Source of the DNA: a virus
IMG/VR virus record: IMGVR_UViG_3300005515_000236
Coordinates: 1 to 27,994 of that record
Direction: 5' to 3' (one strand)
DNA: 27,994 nt
The notes beneath the pieces are model-generated. The model made no database searches and was not told the origin of the DNA. It worked only from the letters and a program-made list of their open reading frames with translations. Both the position numbers and the translations under genes were made by a program. Numbering within the stretch: the stretch's first letter is position 1; every line of letters begins with the position of its first letter. Below are positions 5,331 through 22,307 of the stretch, piece after piece.

Positions 5331-8210
5331 TCAGTCCTGGGAGTTGTTGCGGCCCTGCACGACCTGCAGCACCCACTTTTCGCGGTTGCTGAGCTCGCGC
5401 GGGCTGCCCACGGCGCGGATGTAGCGGGTGAAGGGCTTGCTGTAGGCGAAGCGGCGCGCCTTGGCGGCTGGATCGCCGCCGGCGCGCACCATCTGCGCAA
5501 ACTCTGGTGAGGCGATCAGCGCGTCGGCGGCCTTGATGGCGTTGGGTTTGGCGCCGCGCGTCAGGGCGCTGGCCACCGCGGCGCCCACGCCGGGCCCCAT
5601 GACCGCGCCGGCCGCGGTGCCGACGCTTGCGCCGATCGCGCTTTGCTTGGCGGTTTCGTAGAGCCGGCCGGCCAGGTTGTCAGCGGCCTTGAATTCGTCA
5701 GCCACGGCCATGATGCGGCCGGTGGTGATGCGCTCACGGCTGGCGGCGCTGATGCCGCGCGAGACGCGGTAGAGGTCGCTGATCTGCTTGCGCGCGGGCG
5801 GCGGCAGGTTCGACATCACCGCGGCATAGGCCTGCTTGTTGCGCAGCAGGCCCTCGTACCACTTGGCGTAGGTCGTGAAATTGATGGGCCCGCGCGTGCC
5901 GGCGGTGCGGAAGGCAGAGGCCAGGCCCGCGGCCATCACCTCCTGACGCTGATTCTCGGGGACTGCCTTCAGAAGCCGCAGCAGCTTCGAAGTGTCTCCT
6001 TGAGCCACCGTGCGAACAGCGCCAGACAGATCGCCGACGATGCTGCCATCAAGAGTTTTGCCAAAAAGAGAAACGAGATCGTCTTCCAGTCCCTTGCGGA
6101 CGGCGACGGAGGCTTTCGCGGCGTTGAAGAGGTCGGTGGCACCGTGCGATCCTACGACAGCCGCCTGGTCTTCGGTGATGAGCGAATAGAGCTTTTTCGC
6201 GAGGCCCGTGTCGGCGTCCTTGAACGGGCCCATCATGCGCGACGCGGCGCCCACGTCCTTGCGCACGTCGTCGAGTAGCGCATAGGTCGGCTGCTTCAGC
6301 GTCTGGGTCGTGACCTGCTGCGTCGGCTTCCAGCCTGGGAGCATGAGGCCGGCCTGCGCCGGATCCGATGCCACCGTCTCGGTCTTGCTGCCGGCCTTGG
6401 GTGTGAGCCGCGCGATGATCTTCTTTTCCATCGGCGTCAGGTTGGCCTCGCCGCCCAGTTCGTCGGCGCGCTGCTTGATGAAGCCCAGCACGTTGGTTGC
6501 GGGCGCCTCGGCCTTCGTCGGAATCTCGGTGCGCACGCGCGCATAGAGGTCATCGGCCTGCTTCTCCAACGCGGCCTGCGTGGCCTGCATGCGTGCCTTC
6601 ACCGAGGCGTCGAGCGTGCTCACATCGGTGGTGCCGCCGATCTCGTCGATCAGGCGCTCAGCGCGCTGGCCCACAGCTTCCAGGCCCTGCATCTCGGCGG
6701 CGCGGGCTTCGGAGCCGGGGATCGACTTCACGGCCTGCGCCAGTTCGCGGTAGGCCTGGTTCGTCGTGACGTGGTCGGGTTGCAGGTATTCGTCGATGCC
6801 CAGGCGCTTGGCGGCGGCCACGGTCTTGGCATCGGGCGCGGCCTGCTCGGCGAGTACCTGGGTGGCGCGGCTGCTGCCCATGCCGCCGCCCGCGGCCGTC
6901 TTGGCGGTCTGCGCCAGCTCGGCGGCCGGCATCGGCGGCACGACCGGCGCGGCGGCGACCGGGGGCGCCGCTGGCGCAACAGGTGCCGCCGCGGGGGACA
7001 CGCCAGCCTCGGGCGCGGCCATGGCGGCTTCTTGCACCACCTGCGCGGGGTTCAGGGCCGGCTCCGGCACGCCGCGCATCCGCGACAGGGCCGCTTTGCC
7101 GGCATCGACGACAGCGCCGCCAGCGCGCGCGACGAGCGGCACGATGCCACCGGCAGCGCCAGCCAGCGCGACATCGCCCGCATTGAAGTTCCCACCGGTC
7201 GCGGCCTGCGTGCCCTCGATGACCGCCTGCGTGAGGCCTGCGCCCGCCGCGGCGCCAGGGATGGTGGCCGCCTTGCCGGCCGGCGTGAAGGCTGCGATGG
7301 CGGTGATCGCGCGTGGGATATCGCTCACGCGGAAGCCCGGCTTGATCGCGTATTCCTGGCCGTCAGCAGCCGAGCGGATGATGAAGTTGCCCTTCTCGTC
7401 CTGACGCACCTGGGCCGCTGGGAAGTTGGCCTTGATGATCTGCGCGGTTTCCGCGGGATTGGTCAGCACGGTGCCGACGCCGGTCTTCGCGCTGGCCAGC
7501 GACAGGGAGTTGAGCTCCGGCATGGAAGCCCAATCCGGCAGCGCTTGCGTCGTGGGCGTGCTGCGCGCAGTGCCGGTCACGGCTTCGCGCGTGCGCTCGA
7601 GGAAGTTCATTTCGGGCGCTTCGGCCGCTTCCTGCGGCTGCGGGTTGGTGGCCAGGAACTGCGCGAAGCCCTGCTCGAGCGCGCCGGCTGGCGCTGCAAC
7701 ATTGGCCGGCGCTGCGCCGCCAGGCACAGCCGCTGCCGAGCGCCCGGCCGGTACCGCCGGATTGGCCGACATGAACTTCGCGAAGTCGTTCTCCAGCGCA
7801 GTGGTCTTCGCACCCTGCTGACCGACCATCACCCGATTGATGTAGGCCTGCGTGCGCGGGCCCCAGTTGCTGCGGTTGGTGCCGCCGTGGTATTCGCCAA
7901 CGGCCGCGGCGGCGTCGCCCTTGTTGCGGTCGAGCGCTTCCTTCAGCAGCAGGCCGGCAGCCTCGGAGGCGTTCTCCGGGCTCAGCAGCGGGTCGATGCC
8001 GTACTTGTCGATGACCGCCTTGCGCGTGGACGGGATGAACTGATACGGGCTCTGCGCGGCCGCCTCGCTCACCTGGTCGTTGTTCGACTTCTCCCCCTTC
8101 GTGCGGATGCCCGACAACAGGCCCACCGGCAGCCCGAGCTTTTCCTCAGTCTTGGCATCGAGCGATGCATAGACCGGGTCGGCATACGAGTTGGGGAATT
8201 CGCGCGCCAT
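5331..8210 (-). CDS. Large ejection protein with N-terminal lytic transglycosylase (gp16-like)
   Basis: This 959-residue internal virion protein lies in the position of P22 gp16 but is much longer. Residues 25-130 look like a soluble lytic transglycosylase fold: E40 in GIRTKGEKSNND as probable catalytic Glu, then AQSPYQFIPSTR and VGEYHGG, echoing the family MQ-P-T and A-Y-N-A-G blocks. It should open peptidoglycan for DNA entry. Two copies of a 14-residue segment follow at 138-151 and 177-190. An Ala/Pro-rich linker (about 390-430) and long helical regions complete it; a Gly/Ala-rich stretch at about 890-920 could insert in the membrane. One base separates it from the gene before; no strong ribosome site is visible, so coupling is likely. 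Confidence 0.8.
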   Translation of the reverse strand: MAREFPNSYADPVYASLDAKTEEKLGLPVGLLSGIRTKGEKSNNDQVSEAAAQSPYQFIPSTRKAVIDKYGIDPLLSPENASEAAGLLLKEALDRNKGDAAAAVGEYHGGTNRSNWGPRTQAYINRVMVGQQGAKTTALENDFAKFMSANPAVPAGRSAAAVPGGAAPANVAAPAGALEQGFAQFLATNPQPQEAAEAPEMNFLERTREAVTGTARSTPTTQALPDWASMPELNSLSLASAKTGVGTVLTNPAETAQIIKANFPAAQVRQDEKGNFIIRSAADGQEYAIKPGFRVSDIPRAITAIAAFTPAGKAATIPGAAAGAGLTQAVIEGTQAATGGNFNAGDVALAGAAGGIVPLVARAGGAVVDAGKAALSRMRGVPEPALNPAQVVQEAAMAAPEAGVSPAAAPVAPAAPPVAAAPVVPPMPAAELAQTAKTAAGGGMGSSRATQVLAEQAAPDAKTVAAAKRLGIDEYLQPDHVTTNQAYRELAQAVKSIPGSEARAAEMQGLEAVGQRAERLIDEIGGTTDVSTLDASVKARMQATQAALEKQADDLYARVRTEIPTKAEAPATNVLGFIKQRADELGGEANLTPMEKKIIARLTPKAGSKTETVASDPAQAGLMLPGWKPTQQVTTQTLKQPTYALLDDVRKDVGAASRMMGPFKDADTGLAKKLYSLITEDQAAVVGSHGATDLFNAAKASVAVRKGLEDDLVSLFGKTLDGSIVGDLSGAVRTVAQGDTSKLLRLLKAVPENQRQEVMAAGLASAFRTAGTRGPINFTTYAKWYEGLLRNKQAYAAVMSNLPPPARKQISDLYRVSRGISAASRERITTGRIMAVADEFKAADNLAGRLYETAKQSAIGASVGTAAGAVMGPGVGAAVASALTRGAKPNAIKAADALIASPEFAQMVRAGGDPAAKARRFAYSKPFTRYIRAVGSPRELSNREKWVLQVVQGRNNSQD

Positions 8211-8211
8211 G

Positions 8212-9579
8212 TCAGAACGAGCCCGTTGCGCCGCCCGGCGCGGACTGGGCGGCCGGCGTGGCCGTCGACTGCAGGTATTGCAGCACCTGCGCGCGCGTGG
8301 CGCCCGGGAACTTGGTCAGCAGCTTGTTGATGTCGCCCTCGTTGACGTTGCCGTAGACCGGGTGCTTCAGCACGAAGCCGCCGCCGCTGGTCGGGAGCTT
8401 GCCGCTGCCCACCTGCTTGGCGAGCGCCTTGTCGATGTAGCCTCGGACCACGCCGAGGTTGTTCTTCAGCTGCTTCGCGGACTGGTCGGGGTCGAGGTTT
8501 GCGATGGCTGCCGACAACTTCTTGCCCTCGGCATCGGACAGCGCGCCCATGCCGGTCATCGTCTTGATCTGCGACTGGAAGTTTTGCGCCTGCAGCGTCT
8601 CGATCTGCGCGCGGAAGTCCTTGTCTTCGGTGCCGGGCACGCCGGCGAGGTACTTGCCGGTGACGGTACCAGCGCCGCCCAGCACAGTGCCGCCCTTCAG
8701 CCCCGGGTGCTTCATGAGCGCGTCGATGGTGCTGCGCGTCTGGTTGAGCGTGTCGATCGCATCCTGCGCCGCGCCGCCCTCGGTCTTGGACTTGTCGGTC
8801 TGCTTCTGCACGAGCTCGTCGCGCTTGAGGATCAGCTCGCCGCGCTGCGTTTCGCTGTTGGCCTGGGCGATCTGGGTATTGAGCGCATCGATCTGGCGCT
8901 TCGCCTGCTTGGATTCGACATCCTCGGCGGCATTGGCCAGCTCGAGCGCATTCTTCTGCGGCGCCACGCCGGCCTCGGCGGTCTTGATTCCGGCTTCGGC
9001 ATTCTTCTTGGCGAGGTCGGCCGGCGCCTGCTCGGCGGCGCGCTGCTCGGTGCCGGCGGAAGCTGCCGCGGCCAGGAACTTCTCGCCGCCAGGCACGCTG
9101 GACAGCAGCATGCCCATGGTGGCGCGCGCGAACTCGGGGTGCGCGGCGATCACCTGCGCCTGCGCGCGCAGTGCCTGCACCTCCTGCTTCGGCACGCCGG
9201 CCGTCTCCATGGCGTCGGCGCGCTTGTTCATCTGGTCGATGGCGATGTCCGGGCGCCCGCTGGTCACGGCCGCGTAGTACTGGCCGAGGTCGCGCAGCGT
9301 GGAGTGCTGCTGCTCGGTGCTGCGCATCTCGAAGGCCTGCTTGAAGTTGTCCTTCAGGGCCGGCATCGCGAGGGTCGCATTGGCATAGTCCTTTGCGTTC
9401 GCGTTCGGATTGGAGATCAGGCTTTGCAGCATCTGGGCCTGGCGCTGCTGCTGCGCCAGGGCCACCTGGATCTGCTGCTGCTTGAACTGGTCATCCCGGA
9501 TCGCGACGCCCGCCTGGTAGCCCTGCAGCGCGGACTGGAAAGGCGTCTGAACGTCCGTCGAGTAGTTGATCGGGTCCAT
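8212..9579 (-). CDS. Ejection/DNA-transfer protein (gp20-like)
   Basis: This protein of 455 residues starts at ATG 9579 (MDPINYSTD), four bases after the previous stop; the longer frame upstream overlaps the gp7-like gene and is not needed. It is almost wholly alpha-helical, with Gln/Lys-rich stretches (FKQQQIQVALAQQQRQAQ) and heptad-like regions around 210-290 suggesting coiled coils. A central Gly/Thr-rich segment (GTVLGGAGTVTGKYLAG) breaks the helix. It has no enzyme motif. Position between gp7-like and gp16-like genes matches P22 gene 20, whose product leaves the capsid with the DNA and builds a channel across the envelope. Assignment is by order and character rather than detectable identity. 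Confidence 0.65.
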   Translation of the reverse strand: MDPINYSTDVQTPFQSALQGYQAGVAIRDDQFKQQQIQVALAQQQRQAQMLQSLISNPNANAKDYANATLAMPALKDNFKQAFEMRSTEQQHSTLRDLGQYYAAVTSGRPDIAIDQMNKRADAMETAGVPKQEVQALRAQAQVIAAHPEFARATMGMLLSSVPGGEKFLAAAASAGTEQRAAEQAPADLAKKNAEAGIKTAEAGVAPQKNALELANAAEDVESKQAKRQIDALNTQIAQANSETQRGELILKRDELVQKQTDKSKTEGGAAQDAIDTLNQTRSTIDALMKHPGLKGGTVLGGAGTVTGKYLAGVPGTEDKDFRAQIETLQAQNFQSQIKTMTGMGALSDAEGKKLSAAIANLDPDQSAKQLKNNLGVVRGYIDKALAKQVGSGKLPTSGGGFVLKHPVYGNVNEGDINKLLTKFPGATRAQVLQYLQSTATPAAQSAPGGATGSF

Positions 9580-9583
9580 GATT

Positions 9584-10384
9584 TCACAGTCCGTTGATGA
9601 AGGTGCCGAGGGGATCGGCGCCGGTGTCGTAGCCCGTGCTGCCGTTGTAGCCACTGCTCAGGCCCATGCTGCCCGAGCCATAGCCGCGCTGGCTGCCTGC
9701 CCACAGGCCCAGGCCGCTGCTGATGGCGTTGTAGCCCTGGGCCGTGGCGCGGCCCTGCGCGATCGACGAACCCGCCTGGGCCGCGCCGATCTGCGCGAGC
9801 TGCGACGAGATCGCGTTCGTGGCGGCCTGGCCTGCGTTGCCGACGCCCACCGCGGCGTTTTGCCCGATGTTCGCGAGGCCGCCGAGCTGCTGGAAGCGGT
9901 TGTTGATCTCGGCCGACAGCATGGCAGGGCTGAACTGCGCGAGCGCCGCCTGGGTGTTGCCGCCGCGCAGGCCGCCGGTGGCCGAGGCGTTCTGCAGGAT
10001 CGACTGCTCGCCGCGCTGGATCTGCGCCTGGAACAGCGGCGAGTTCTGGATGTTGTCGATCATGGCCTGCTGCGGGGCACTGCCATTGACGCCGATCAGG
10101 TCGCCCTGTTGGCCAAAGGCGCGCGTGCCGGTGTCCACGAAGGGCCGCAGCAGGGCAAGCACATTGTTCAGATTGGCCTGCTGGTTGATGGCGCTGTAGA
10201 CCGCCATCTGGGTCTGCTGCTGGGCACCCGCCTGGGCCGCGCCGGCCTGGGCATTCGCGCCGGCGACACCTGCCACCGCGGTACCGACGCCGACCGCCGC
10301 TGCCACGCTGCACAGGCGCGCGGCCTTCAGGAAGTGATCGGCATGCTCGCGCTGCAGCCGGCTGGTGGTTCGAATGCGGCCCAT
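9584..10384 (-). CDS. Ejection/DNA-transfer protein (gp7-like)
   Basis: The first of three ejection proteins, 266 residues. After a basic start it has a hydrophobic Ala/Val/Gly helix (about 25-45, VAAAVGVGTAVAGVAGANA), then Gln/Ala-rich helices (AAQAGAQQQTQMAVYSAINQQ) and a Gly/Ser/Tyr-rich end. This composition and the order 7-20-16 match the P22 DNA-transfer proteins that are packaged in the head and expelled into the cell envelope. Start ATG 10384 has a strong AGGGAGA five bases upstream and is one base beyond the acetyltransferase stop. Sequence identity to gp7 is not obvious to the eye. Confidence 0.7.
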   Translation of the reverse strand: MGRIRTTSRLQREHADHFLKAARLCSVAAAVGVGTAVAGVAGANAQAGAAQAGAQQQTQMAVYSAINQQANLNNVLALLRPFVDTGTRAFGQQGDLIGVNGSAPQQAMIDNIQNSPLFQAQIQRGEQSILQNASATGGLRGGNTQAALAQFSPAMLSAEINNRFQQLGGLANIGQNAAVGVGNAGQAATNAISSQLAQIGAAQAGSSIAQGRATAQGYNAISSGLGLWAGSQRGYGSGSMGLSSGYNGSTGYDTGADPLGTFINGL

Positions 10385-10385
10385 G

Positions 10386-10922
10386 TCAGTCTCCCTGCGG
10401 AATCAGCTTGGCGTAGAGGTATTCCACGCGCGTGTAGCCCAGATGCTCGAAGAGCTTGCTCATGTCGAGGTGCACCTTTGTGCCGGTGAAAAGTTTGCGC
10501 ACGCCGAGCGCGGCCATTTCCTTCTCGACCTGGCGGAACAGGCGGATGCCGGTGAAGCCCTGGCGGTGCGCCGGCGCGAGCCAGTAGACGTCGGTGATGC
10601 CGTGCAGCGTGGACTTGTAGTGCAGGTGGCCCGAGATCACGGCGACGTGGTAGCCCACGAGCTCGCCGTCCTGGCGCACCGTCACGATGTGCAGCGCGCC
10701 GGACTTGTCGAGGGCGTCGTATTTCTCGTGGTCGATGTCGAGCGGCACGTCAGCGTGGTTGAGCGCGATCTCTTTCCAGTGCTGCACGAGCAGCGGCAGC
10801 ATCTCGCGGCGCAGGTTGCGCCACTTCTCGACCTGGTAGGCGATGCCGGCTCGGGGCGCCACCCTTACGCCTTCGCTGGGGCCGTGGACGGCTTCGACGC
10901 ATGGCAATGCTTCCGTGGTCAT
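10386..10922 (-). CDS. GNAT-family N-acetyltransferase
   Basis: This predicted acetyl-CoA-dependent acetyltransferase has 178 residues from ATG 10922, which overlaps the hydroxylase stop in ATGA. The core spans about 60-165: strand ALHIVTVRQDGELVGYHVAV, then motif A, WLAPAHRQGFTGIRLF, whose R-Q-G-x-x-G turn binds the pyrophosphate of acetyl-CoA, then the helix VEKEMAALGV and a final TKVHLDMSKLFEHLGYTRV segment where GNAT proteins close the site. Substrate is unknown. It lies between the needle and ejection genes, so a virion protein or a host component made late in infection is the likely target. It and the preceding hydroxylase occupy the place where P22 has gene 14. Confidence 0.8.
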   Translation of the reverse strand: MTTEALPCVEAVHGPSEGVRVAPRAGIAYQVEKWRNLRREMLPLLVQHWKEIALNHADVPLDIDHEKYDALDKSGALHIVTVRQDGELVGYHVAVISGHLHYKSTLHGITDVYWLAPAHRQGFTGIRLFRQVEKEMAALGVRKLFTGTKVHLDMSKLFEHLGYTRVEYLYAKLIPQGD

Positions 10923-11500
10923 GTCGAGCACCTGGCGTCGAGGATCATGTGGATGCGATCCGTCTTGCTGTGGTTGTGGATCTCGTGCTCGAGCTTGTTG
11001 TTGAACCAGAAGACCGAGCCGGTTTCCCAGTAGGTCACCTCGTTGCCGCAGCGGAACTCGACGCCCTCTTCGCTCTGCAGCACGATGTGGAAGCGCCGGT
11101 AGTAGTCGCAGTGCGCGGGCGTGTCAGCGTGCGGGAAGATGTGGCCGCCGGGCGCGATCTTGTTGATCATCACGCGGCCCAAGCGCTCGCCGGCCACCGC
11201 GGCGAAGACGTTCTGCACCAGCGGTCGCGCCTCGTGCAAGCGGCCATAGGCGGGCTGGTCCACGCTCTCGTGCTGGTCGTAGCCGGGCAGCTTGTTCTGC
11301 TTGTAGAGCTTGATCTGCTTCTCGGTCAGGCCGGTGGCCACGACCGGGAAGCGCAGCATGATCGACTCGACCTCGCCGAATGGGCCCTGGGGGTAGTTGC
11401 GGAGGAAGGTGTCTTCGGTCCAGAGTTCGGGCCGGCGGGCGATGGCCAGCATCAACGAGGTGACGTTCACACCCGTGGCCAGCCGCATGAAATTGCGCAT
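10919..11500 (-). CDS. Aspartyl/asparaginyl beta-hydroxylase-like 2-oxoglutarate dioxygenase
   Basis: This 193-residue protein is related to aspartyl/asparaginyl beta-hydroxylases, which use Fe(II) and 2-oxoglutarate to hydroxylate protein side chains. The cupin core runs from about 105 to 190: H124 and D126 in GGHIFPHADTP, the strand CDYYRRFHIVLQSEEG, GSVFWFNNKLEHEIHN with H172, and DRIHMILD with R182 as probable 2-oxoglutarate anchor. The metal and co-substrate residues expected of the family appear present, so it should be active. It is the first gene after promoter-like module P3 and is coupled to the acetyltransferase. The substrate is unknown; a late virion protein is plausible. Confidence 0.8.
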   Translation of the reverse strand: MRNFMRLATGVNVTSLMLAIARRPELWTEDTFLRNYPQGPFGEVESIMLRFPVVATGLTEKQIKLYKQNKLPGYDQHESVDQPAYGRLHEARPLVQNVFAAVAGERLGRVMINKIAPGGHIFPHADTPAHCDYYRRFHIVLQSEEGVEFRCGNEVTYWETGSVFWFNNKLEHEIHNHSKTDRIHMILDARCST

Positions 11501-11582
11501 CTCACTGCTCTCTTTCGAGGATTGGTGAGCTGCTGGCTGCTCGTTCGGCTCAGCTGATCGGCGCGGGGGCCGACTGGCGCGG

Positions 11583-11620
11583 ATTGTAGGAATGGCCTAT
11601 GCGAAAGCCAAACTTTGATA
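11583..11620 (-). promoter_or_regulatory. Phage late promoter module P3 (upstream of hydroxylase)
   Basis: Read on the minus strand, TATCAAA (11614-11620) is followed by TTGGCT (11606-11611), 17 bases, then TACAAT (11583-11588) and CCGC. The hexamers match the sigma-70 -35 and -10 consensus at 4 and 5 of 6 positions with ideal spacing. The same layout and length recur before portal and scaffold. The start point would be near 11576, giving a leader of about 75 bases before the hydroxylase. Confidence 0.65.
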
Positions 11621-11629
11621 CTTCCCGCC

Positions 11630-12667
11630 TCAGGGCGTCAGCGTGGTGCCCTGGAAATAGGTCCGGCTCGCTGCGCCGTTCGTGTTCTGCGCGACGCCGG
11701 TGCCCTGGAAGGCCCAGAGCTCGTAGACGTCGGTGCCGTTGGGGATGTCGATGCACGTCACCGAGGAACCCGTGGGGCCCGCGCCCTGGGCTGCGATTTC
11801 GGTGCCGCGCTTGAACTCGGCGCCGTTCTTGTAGACCGCGACCGTCATCTGCGCGGCGGCCACGGATGCCGCGGACACGTAGGCCCCGGTGAGCATCACG
11901 GGCTTGCCGGCCGGTGGCGTCCACGCGCTGGCGGCGAAGTGCGCGCCGGTGTCGAAGGCCTCGGTGCTGAAGGTCAGCTTCGTGAAAGCCGCGTTCGGGA
12001 TCGACTGGGCCACCGCGTTGTTGTGCGCGCTGAAGCTGGCGGCCGTCGACGCCGGCGCCGCGCCGCCGCGGAAGACCATCAGCAGCTGCGCGCTGGTGGC
12101 GTCGTAGTAGCCGAAGGCATAGTCGACTACACCGGGCGCGGCACTCAGCACTGGCGCGCCCGCCGCGCCGAAGTTGTAGATCGGGTCGAAGGCCAGCGTG
12201 CGGCCGCCGGTCACGTCCTGGCGAATCGCAATGCTCAGAAGCGTCCCATCCACCAGGAAGGTGGGCGCAGCCAAGGTCCGATTGCCGCCGAGCGTGACGC
12301 TGAAGGCGTTGTGCTGCAACGCGTTGACCGAGATGATGGGCGCATCCACGAGCGCCAGCGGCACGTCGCGCAGCGCGAGCGCGTTGACCGTGGCCTGTGC
12401 GGTGTTGGCAGAGCCGAGCGCGGAGGTCGCCGTGATCTGCGCCGCGTTTGCCGCGCCCTGCGCAATCACAGCGGCAGCGGCTGCCCCGTCGGCGGTGGCC
12501 TGGGCTGCTTCTACTGCCGCCGTATTGCCATCGATCGCCGTGGGGATCGTGACCGTGAGGTCATAGGACTGATTCTCGAAGGCCTTGAGCAGCTCGGGCG
12601 TCTTGAATGCCTGGGCCAGCTTGTCGCGCGAGATCGACTGCGACCGGAAGACTATCTGCGTCGCCAT
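11630..12667 (-). CDS. Tail needle or fibre with C1q/TNF-like C-terminal knob
   Basis: This trimeric-looking virion fibre has 345 residues. An N-terminal helical part (about 10-45, DKLAQAFKTPELLKAFENQS) leads to a long Ala-rich heptad region (about 48-98) that should form a coiled coil. A small beta domain follows (about 105-205; IIRQ-like strand SIAIRQDVTGGRTLAF, common in phage fibres). The last 125 residues have a C1q/TNF-like jelly-roll pattern (WTPPAGKPVMLTGAYV, MTVAVYKNGAEFKRG). It comes right after the gp10-like gene, the slot of P22 gene 26, the tail needle; some P22-like needles, such as that of Sf6, carry a TNF-like knob. An ordinary tail fibre is the alternative. Confidence 0.6.
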   Translation of the reverse strand: MATQIVFRSQSISRDKLAQAFKTPELLKAFENQSYDLTVTIPTAIDGNTAAVEAAQATADGAAAAAVIAQGAANAAQITATSALGSANTAQATVNALALRDVPLALVDAPIISVNALQHNAFSVTLGGNRTLAAPTFLVDGTLLSIAIRQDVTGGRTLAFDPIYNFGAAGAPVLSAAPGVVDYAFGYYDATSAQLLMVFRGGAAPASTAASFSAHNNAVAQSIPNAAFTKLTFSTEAFDTGAHFAASAWTPPAGKPVMLTGAYVSAASVAAAQMTVAVYKNGAEFKRGTEIAAQGAGPTGSSVTCIDIPNGTDVYELWAFQGTGVAQNTNGAASRTYFQGTTLTP

Positions 12668-20030: not shown

Positions 20031-20077
20031 CGTTTCGACCCTTCATCTCACCTGAAAGCCGGTGGTGGCTGCGGCGG

Positions 20078-20115
20078 ATGATAGGTAGACGCAATTGCCG
20101 ATACAACTTTTGATA
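20078..20115 (-). promoter_or_regulatory. Phage late promoter module P2 (upstream of scaffold)
   Basis: On the minus strand TATCAAA (20109-20115), TTGTAT (20101-20106), 17 bases, TATCAT (20078-20083), then CCGC. The -10 hexamer matches 5 of 6 consensus bases, the -35 only 3 of 6. Layout and total length of 38 bases are the same as in P1 and P3. It would give the scaffold-coat pair its own message with a leader of about 40 bases. Confidence 0.65.
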
Positions 20116-22231: not shown

Positions 22232-22269
22232 AGCAAATTCCTACCGCGCCACGAGACGCGAATAGCGGG

Positions 22270-22307
22270 ATTCTATGAATCAGTCAACTGAAATCACAGT
22301 TTCGATA
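22270..22307 (-). promoter_or_regulatory. Phage late promoter module P1 (upstream of portal)
   Basis: On the minus strand TATCGAAA starts at 22307, and TAGAAT (22270-22275), 5 of 6 to the -10 consensus, lies at the same 32-base offset as in P2 and P3, again followed by CC and a G/C pair. The -35 position (TGTGAT) is a poor match. A TTGACT at 22282-22287 is too close to this -10 to serve it. It lies in the 101-base gap between terminase and portal. Confidence 0.55.

Follow-up and report, generated by a model that had tools for sequence, protein, structure and literature searches.

A hydroxylase–GNAT gene pair in an exchangeable slot behind a candidate leader RNA at the entry to a P22-like ejection module

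The pair and its neighbours

The stretch of DNA analysed here (the window) comprises positions 1 to 27,994 of IMG/VR virus record IMGVR_UViG_3300005515_000236 and contains a P22-like late region on the minus strand, where all features described below lie. Gene order is terminase, portal, scaffold, coat, gp4, gp10/Hc3, a needle-position protein, a hydroxylase, a GNAT-family protein, and then gp7-, gp20- and gp16-like proteins. The hydroxylase gene (10919..11500; 193 aa) and that of the GNAT-family acyltransferase (10386..10922; 178 aa from the ATG at 10922, with an alternative GTG at 10931) are joined by an ATGA overlap in which the hydroxylase stop (...ACATGACC) shares nucleotides with the GNAT start codon at 10922. 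Immediately downstream come the gp7-like ejection protein (9584..10384; PF25688, phrog_598), which is the pair's constant neighbour, the gp20-like ejection protein (8212..9654; phrog_2534) and a gp16-like internal protein with a transglycosylase (SLT) domain (5331..8210). The Hc3/gp10 protein lies upstream, as does a protein of 345 aa (11630..12667) that occupies the needle position. An initial annotation of this DNA had described two overlapping enzyme-fold genes in the slot of P22 gene 14, and open reading frames, coordinates, strand and matches to PF05118 and PF00583 all agree with it. Its placement of the pair between needle and ejection genes holds on the downstream side, where profiles identify gp7, gp20 and gp16, whereas the needle is assigned by position alone: homologues sit in the same place in relatives, and a family search with the protein gave no convincing match. 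A megablast search of the locus against phage records matched nothing.

The designation of the PF05118 gene product as a hydroxylase is well supported. The profile match (E = 4.5e-17, 62.8 bits) stands far above the curated cut-off of 22.6 bits, and the residues of the HxD...H...R motif – H124, D126, H172 and R182 – are unchanged in 134 of 134 non-redundant sequences, down to approximately 25% identity. A median dN/dS of 0.075 between closely related pairs shows that the gene is under purifying selection, and the product is apparently an active enzyme, as we infer from sequence. The predicted structure (pLDDT 92.9) is a double-stranded beta-helix (DSBH) 2-oxoglutarate (2OG) oxygenase whose best structural matches are all 2OG hydroxylases, with Z scores of 15.2 for the nucleoside hydroxylase 7v4m, 14–15 for proline hydroxylases, 13.6 for AspH and 13.4 for PHD2; the matches from Foldseek include the structure of an EF-Tu prolyl hydroxylase. 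Since the scores for nucleoside, proline and aspartate hydroxylases lie so close together, the Asp/Asn specificity originally assigned to the enzyme does not follow from its structure; nor is it fixed by membership of PF05118. Mean identity among the hydroxylases is 65%, compared with 28–37% for the coat protein, gp10, gp4 and gp7 around them. A group of PF05118 relatives at about 25% identity (L077–L089) was set aside, their context being a different one: in the member examined, L077, the gene stands between a DNA polymerase and a UvsX-like recombinase.

The second gene of the pair matches PF00583 (E = 3.6e-6, 27.7 bits; cut-off 20.7) and phrog_1249 (2.9e-15). Within the acetyl-CoA loop (Q/RxxGxG/A) R120 is present in 115 of 115 sequences and G125 in 98 of 115, while the first glycine is a phenylalanine in the window. 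Its relation to P22 gp14 turns on the fold of the latter. An AlphaFold model of gp14, built on a shallow alignment, reached a pLDDT of just 42, and the fold was therefore judged by comparing the family profile with solved structures. With divergent members added, the profile of the gp14 family (PF11039/DUF2824) matches solved GNAT structures (best E = 2e-8), and the structure matches listed are acetyltransferases save for one or two named simply as hypothetical proteins. By this profile evidence P22 gene 14 belongs to a GNAT-fold family, so that the window GNAT is the counterpart of gp14 and the hydroxylase the added gene. The two share a place – from needle/gp10 to gp7 – and a GNAT-type fold; sequence membership of the gp14 family does not extend to the window protein, for which the PF11039 profile reported no match at E ≤ 1. 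The earlier view that the enzymes stand in place of gene 14 is thus right as to position, but they are not an unrelated replacement. The window protein likewise gave no match to the T7 gp13 profile (PF11090), nor a significant hhalign comparison with it, and hhalign among the GNAT, gp14 and gp13 profiles returned nothing significant. As the gp13 profile also found no match in the PDB, these comparisons do not tie T7 gp13 to the GNAT fold.

The association of the two genes extends well beyond the window. Our set of 159 loci was assembled from scans seeded with the hydroxylase alone, supplemented by phage records and by a small number of loci found with a GNAT seed. Among the 130 close relatives a GNAT gene directly follows the hydroxylase at all 124 loci with room to see it, bearing out the co-occurrence that the initial annotation had proposed as a check, and the pair is followed by gp7 in 112 of 114. 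In 107 of 128 pairs the GNAT start lies at offset –3 to the hydroxylase stop; the two would be translationally coupled, to judge from this overlap. Even where gp10 has moved downstream (14 loci) the hydroxylase–GNAT–gp7 trio is intact. All told the pair is present in more than 100 related phages, the named ones being mostly Burkholderiales prophages, with others from Acinetobacter and Sphingomonadales. Each gene also occurs singly: a hydroxylase without GNAT adjoins gp7-type or 'DNA ejection' genes in five loci (L246, L251, L252, L253 and L003), and both ct2os315 and gp7-anchored loci show a GNAT without hydroxylase ahead of such genes. The overlapping pair of Limnohabitans phage DC33 is found between terminase and portal rather than before gp7.

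The promoter-like module, the leader RNA and exchange of the slot gene

The pair is headed by a promoter-like module, P3 (11581..11620), of the form TATCAAA-N25-TACAATCC. The window has three exact copies of the general pattern TATCRAA-N25-TAnnATCC, always with identical spacing (11620..11581, 20115..20076 and 22307..22268), ahead of the hydroxylase, the scaffold gene and the portal gene; the module was never found in shuffled sequence, a count to be read with the fact that the pattern was derived from the same three sites. The position assigned to P3 in the initial annotation is thereby upheld. P3 also holds the sole sigma70-like site found between 8.0 and 17.4 kb (TTGGCT-17-TACAAT). Its spacing is kept in one relative (L010); the exact module was not found in the relatives fetched. 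The presence of three modules so alike in spacing suggests an activator-dependent late promoter.

Between P3 and the hydroxylase start codon lies a conserved structured leader RNA (11501..11560), absent from the initial annotation. It has an invariant GCTGAG (11554), followed by a GAGC/GCTC stem around a loop containing CCAGC (11542..11527) and then by a second hairpin across the Shine-Dalgarno region (11520..11508), giving the general scheme GCTGAG-N-[stem]-loop with CCAGC-[stem']-hairpin with Shine-Dalgarno. Eighteen hydroxylase loci, the window included, possess the leader, and in all 18 the short stem is formed by sequences that differ: GAGC/GCTC, GCGC/GCGC, GGGT/ACCC, GCCT/GGGC and TTGCGT/ACGCAA. 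This degree of pairing was reached by none of 2000 strand shuffles. A covariance model built from these leaders alone finds the leader in loci devoid of hydroxylase, where the slot gene encodes a cupin, a cupin–SET fusion, a gp14-type GNAT or a DUF6445 oxygenase. The plain leader pattern is present in 39 of 70 such loci against an expectation of about 4.3, and covariation of the stem in this hydroxylase-free set was equalled by none of 3000 shuffles. For 26 model-aligned leaders, an alignment that itself leans to the model, 99.5% of positions in the stem are paired, with 12 double changes and 0 of 500 shuffles doing as well. Strand shuffles ignore relatedness and the exact counts are accordingly not probabilities; controls in which the strands were slid agree with them. 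The hairpin thus covaries in independent sets.

Carriers of the leader are numerous (the window itself at 11501–11560, slot leaders in L284–L361, and L364–L443), and a single version of the stem has exact matches in at least 119 viral contigs. Of 80 leader contigs inspected, 57 have room downstream, and in 51 of these gp7 comes within 2.6 kb; a needle-type gene stands ahead of the leader in 58; the slot gene between varies, and gp7 stands immediately behind the leader in just two. Searches of the leaders of the window and of L285 with the Rfam 15 covariance models gave only sub-threshold chance matches at E ≤ 10. We therefore regard the GCTGAG...CCAGC leader as a candidate new structured RNA family at the entry to podovirus ejection modules, whichever gene follows. 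A pseudoknot between GCTG and the CAGC in the loop is conceivable, a matter on which covariation is silent because both segments are invariant. A competing helix, in which the second strand pairs with the third and the Shine-Dalgarno sequence is hidden, was equalled by 1 of 2000 shuffles for the 18 leaders and by 56 of 2000 for the nine distinct ones, and is only suggestive. Translation may be what the leader regulates.

The nature of the slot itself came into view from a census seeded with gp7, for which the closer of two gp7 alignments was used for searching (a more diverse set was dropped) and in which the tally of classes is our own. The 80 loci contain 10 hydroxylase–GNAT pairs; 32 proteins of cupin type (phrog_12032, labelled 'short tail fiber'); 11 members of phrog_21390, a family without known enzyme fold; eight gp14-type proteins; seven other GNATs and four small GNAT-like proteins; one DUF6445 2OG oxygenase; and seven that are other or unassignable. 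Five of the 32 cupin-type proteins have a C-terminal SET match, four of them carrying both NHSxxPN and GEE[LI]TVDY. The gene before gp7 is swapped among phages that have the same gp7. In BPP-1 a GNAT (bbp24) adjoins a cupin (bbp23) between terminase and portal, and bbp23 belongs to the same family as the slot cupins (1.4e-29 against their profile).

Several further details of the slot deserve record. Cupin–SET fusions stand directly before gp7 in L286, L289, L299, L309 and L326. The phrog_21390 reading frames (L307, L308, L316, L319, L335, L340, L343, L344, L347, L348 and L354) are about 150 aa long, with conserved FDDxADGD and SFVWRAGYYD motifs, and possibly represent another enzyme; phrog_21390 is also the commonest gene behind the leader (38 of 80 leader-bearing loci). 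An N-terminus common to the slot reading frames of L316 and L321 was entertained as protein and rejected, being the leader RNA translated.

What the slot proteins may do

We propose that the window has, where its P22-like ejection module begins, one form of an enzyme cassette that is exchanged among phages. P3, a late promoter-like element, and the structured 5′ leader would together set expression of the slot genes and of gp7–gp20–gp16, the leader being able in principle to hide the Shine-Dalgarno sequence. The slot is here filled by an Fe(II)/2-oxoglutarate hydroxylase whose catalytic residues are intact and by an overlapping GNAT acyltransferase, both of which may act late in infection on an ejection or tail protein, or on an assembly partner, by hydroxylation and acylation. 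That the pair are made late and serve to modify the ejection apparatus is a reading to which we give a little less than an even chance. The place and recurrence of the pair suggest that components of the injection machinery undergo chemical modification by these phages; and of the purposes considered, place, conservation and exchange with other families of modifying enzyme, taken together, best support modification of the ejection apparatus.

Not all of the data fall in line with this. The hydroxylated and acetylated virion proteins envisaged in the initial annotation drew no support from gp7, in whose alignment a search for modification sites turned up no column with Asp/Asn or Lys at a conservation of at least 75%, and no mass-spectrometric evidence for them came to light. 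The distances of the hydroxylase correlate better with those of the GNAT (rho 0.51) than with those of gp7 (0.32; gp7 with gp10, 0.78), so that the data show no diversification of the enzyme in step with a gp7 substrate. The pair stands elsewhere in the late operon of DC33, and GNAT plus cupin likewise in BPP-1; the slot also hosts phrog_21390; and the nearest structures include hydroxylases of free amino acids and nucleosides.

This last point bears on a different target, the host. The pair might modify lipid A or an envelope component, in the manner of LpxO; a free amino acid, in the manner of proline hydroxylases; or a host protein, for instance EF-Tu or a ribosomal protein, in the service of superinfection exclusion or takeover, with the late slot merely tolerating cargo. 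The closest folds, those of nucleoside and free-proline hydroxylases, are tied with AspH, an EF-Tu prolyl hydroxylase is among the matches, and the hydroxylase is conserved well above its neighbours, as if its target were conserved too. We nevertheless consider a host target unlikely: adjacency to gp7 is strict through diverged and rearranged genomes, and in related phages other slot genes lie between the same leader and the same gp7, which argues for a function tied to ejection. Polymorphism of the slot between conserved flanks also fits homologous exchange, and the pair could owe its fixed place to recombination between leader and gp7 while serving counter-defence or auxiliary metabolism, with no role in the virion; a related hydroxylase is classed with auxiliary metabolism in the paper on the Limnohabitans phage (PMC12195039). 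Dispensable cargo would be expected to be missing from many genomes, however, and the slot is filled in nearly all relatives (empty in two of 80 leader loci); no defence-related neighbour was seen, and the late operon is late for counter-defence. We consider such a role highly improbable.

A role in assembly is a further alternative. The slot proteins could be chaperones or scaffolds that load the ejection proteins, like P22 gp14 and T7 gp13, with catalysis vestigial or irrelevant. Both gp14 (PHROG 'head morphogenesis') and gp13 (Pfam 'probable scaffold protein') occupy the same slot, the gp14 family is itself GNAT-fold, unrelated folds are swapped there, and one glycine of the customary RxxGxG/A loop is missing from the window GNAT. 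Yet a scaffold does not explain active sites that are invariant – all four residues in all 134 hydroxylases, lineages at 25–30% identity among them – and SET versions retain NHSxxPN and GEELxxDY; we think a purely structural role decidedly unlikely.

Modification of the ejection apparatus invites a bolder generalization, namely that P22-like podoviruses have a dedicated 'ejection-modifier' slot, composed of a new regulatory leader RNA and interchangeable protein-modifying enzymes – hydroxylase plus acetyltransferase, SET lysine-methyltransferase-like proteins, other 2OG oxygenases, and GNATs including P22 gp14 – that act post-translationally on ejection proteins. In this broad form the idea is speculative and on balance rather doubtful, but were it true, chemical modification would be a step in building the genome-ejection machine. 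What P22 gene 14 does, and what the gene preceding the T7-type ejection proteins does, has long been obscure. The occurrence of enzyme folds at the pre-ejection position across podoviruses, often with intact active sites, makes modification for loading or firing of the ejection apparatus testable; if borne out, virion assembly would gain one of its few examples of hydroxylation, acetylation or SET-type methylation. The leader is a separate regulatory element that can itself be tested directly.

Comparison with known systems

A search of the literature, with most subscription journals outside its reach, found no paper describing such a pair or slot. The closest parallel is P22 gene 14 (gp14; PF11039/DUF2824, phrog_651), which has the same needle-to-gp7 position and a family profile that matches GNAT structures; divergent members of its family stand behind the same leader RNA (L317 and L323). 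P22 itself has neither a hydroxylase nor an intergenic leader, gene 14 starting at the gene 26 stop, and the window GNAT differs from gp14 in falling in phrog_1249 with no match to PF11039. T7 gp13 (PF11090, formerly DUF2833) is similarly a small protein directly upstream of the first ejection protein, but is without sequence match to the window GNAT. A DUF2833 protein in a gp13-type position in Pseudomonas phage YA3 has been annotated as a 'putative acetyltransferase' (PMC7326022).

The hydroxylase has its own relatives in human AspH and L-proline cis-4-hydroxylase, with which it shares PF05118 and the DSBH fold, the HxD...H...R motif being conserved in the phage family; the window protein has no TPR domain and is only 193 aa long. 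Among cultured phages, Pseudomonas phage PfAn1 (PV364321, XRX11816–XRX11820), for which Pseudomonas fluorescens serves as laboratory host, has the order hydroxylase–GNAT–gp7–gp20–gp16, with a hydroxylase (annotated as 'hypothetical protein') 53% identical to that of the window; its needle and gp10 genes are inverted relative to the module, and the leader RNA was not found there. In Limnohabitans phage DC33 (ORF8–ORF7; PMC12195039) hydroxylase and GNAT are adjacent with an ATGA-type overlap, but lie, unlike those of the window, between terminase and portal. The DC33 record (PQ492659.1; L002) is filed under Inoviridae despite a 39-kb genome with terminase and head–tail adaptor (portal-type) genes. 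Set against these systems, the components belong to known families; what seems new is their arrangement, together with the polymorphism of the slot and the leader RNA.
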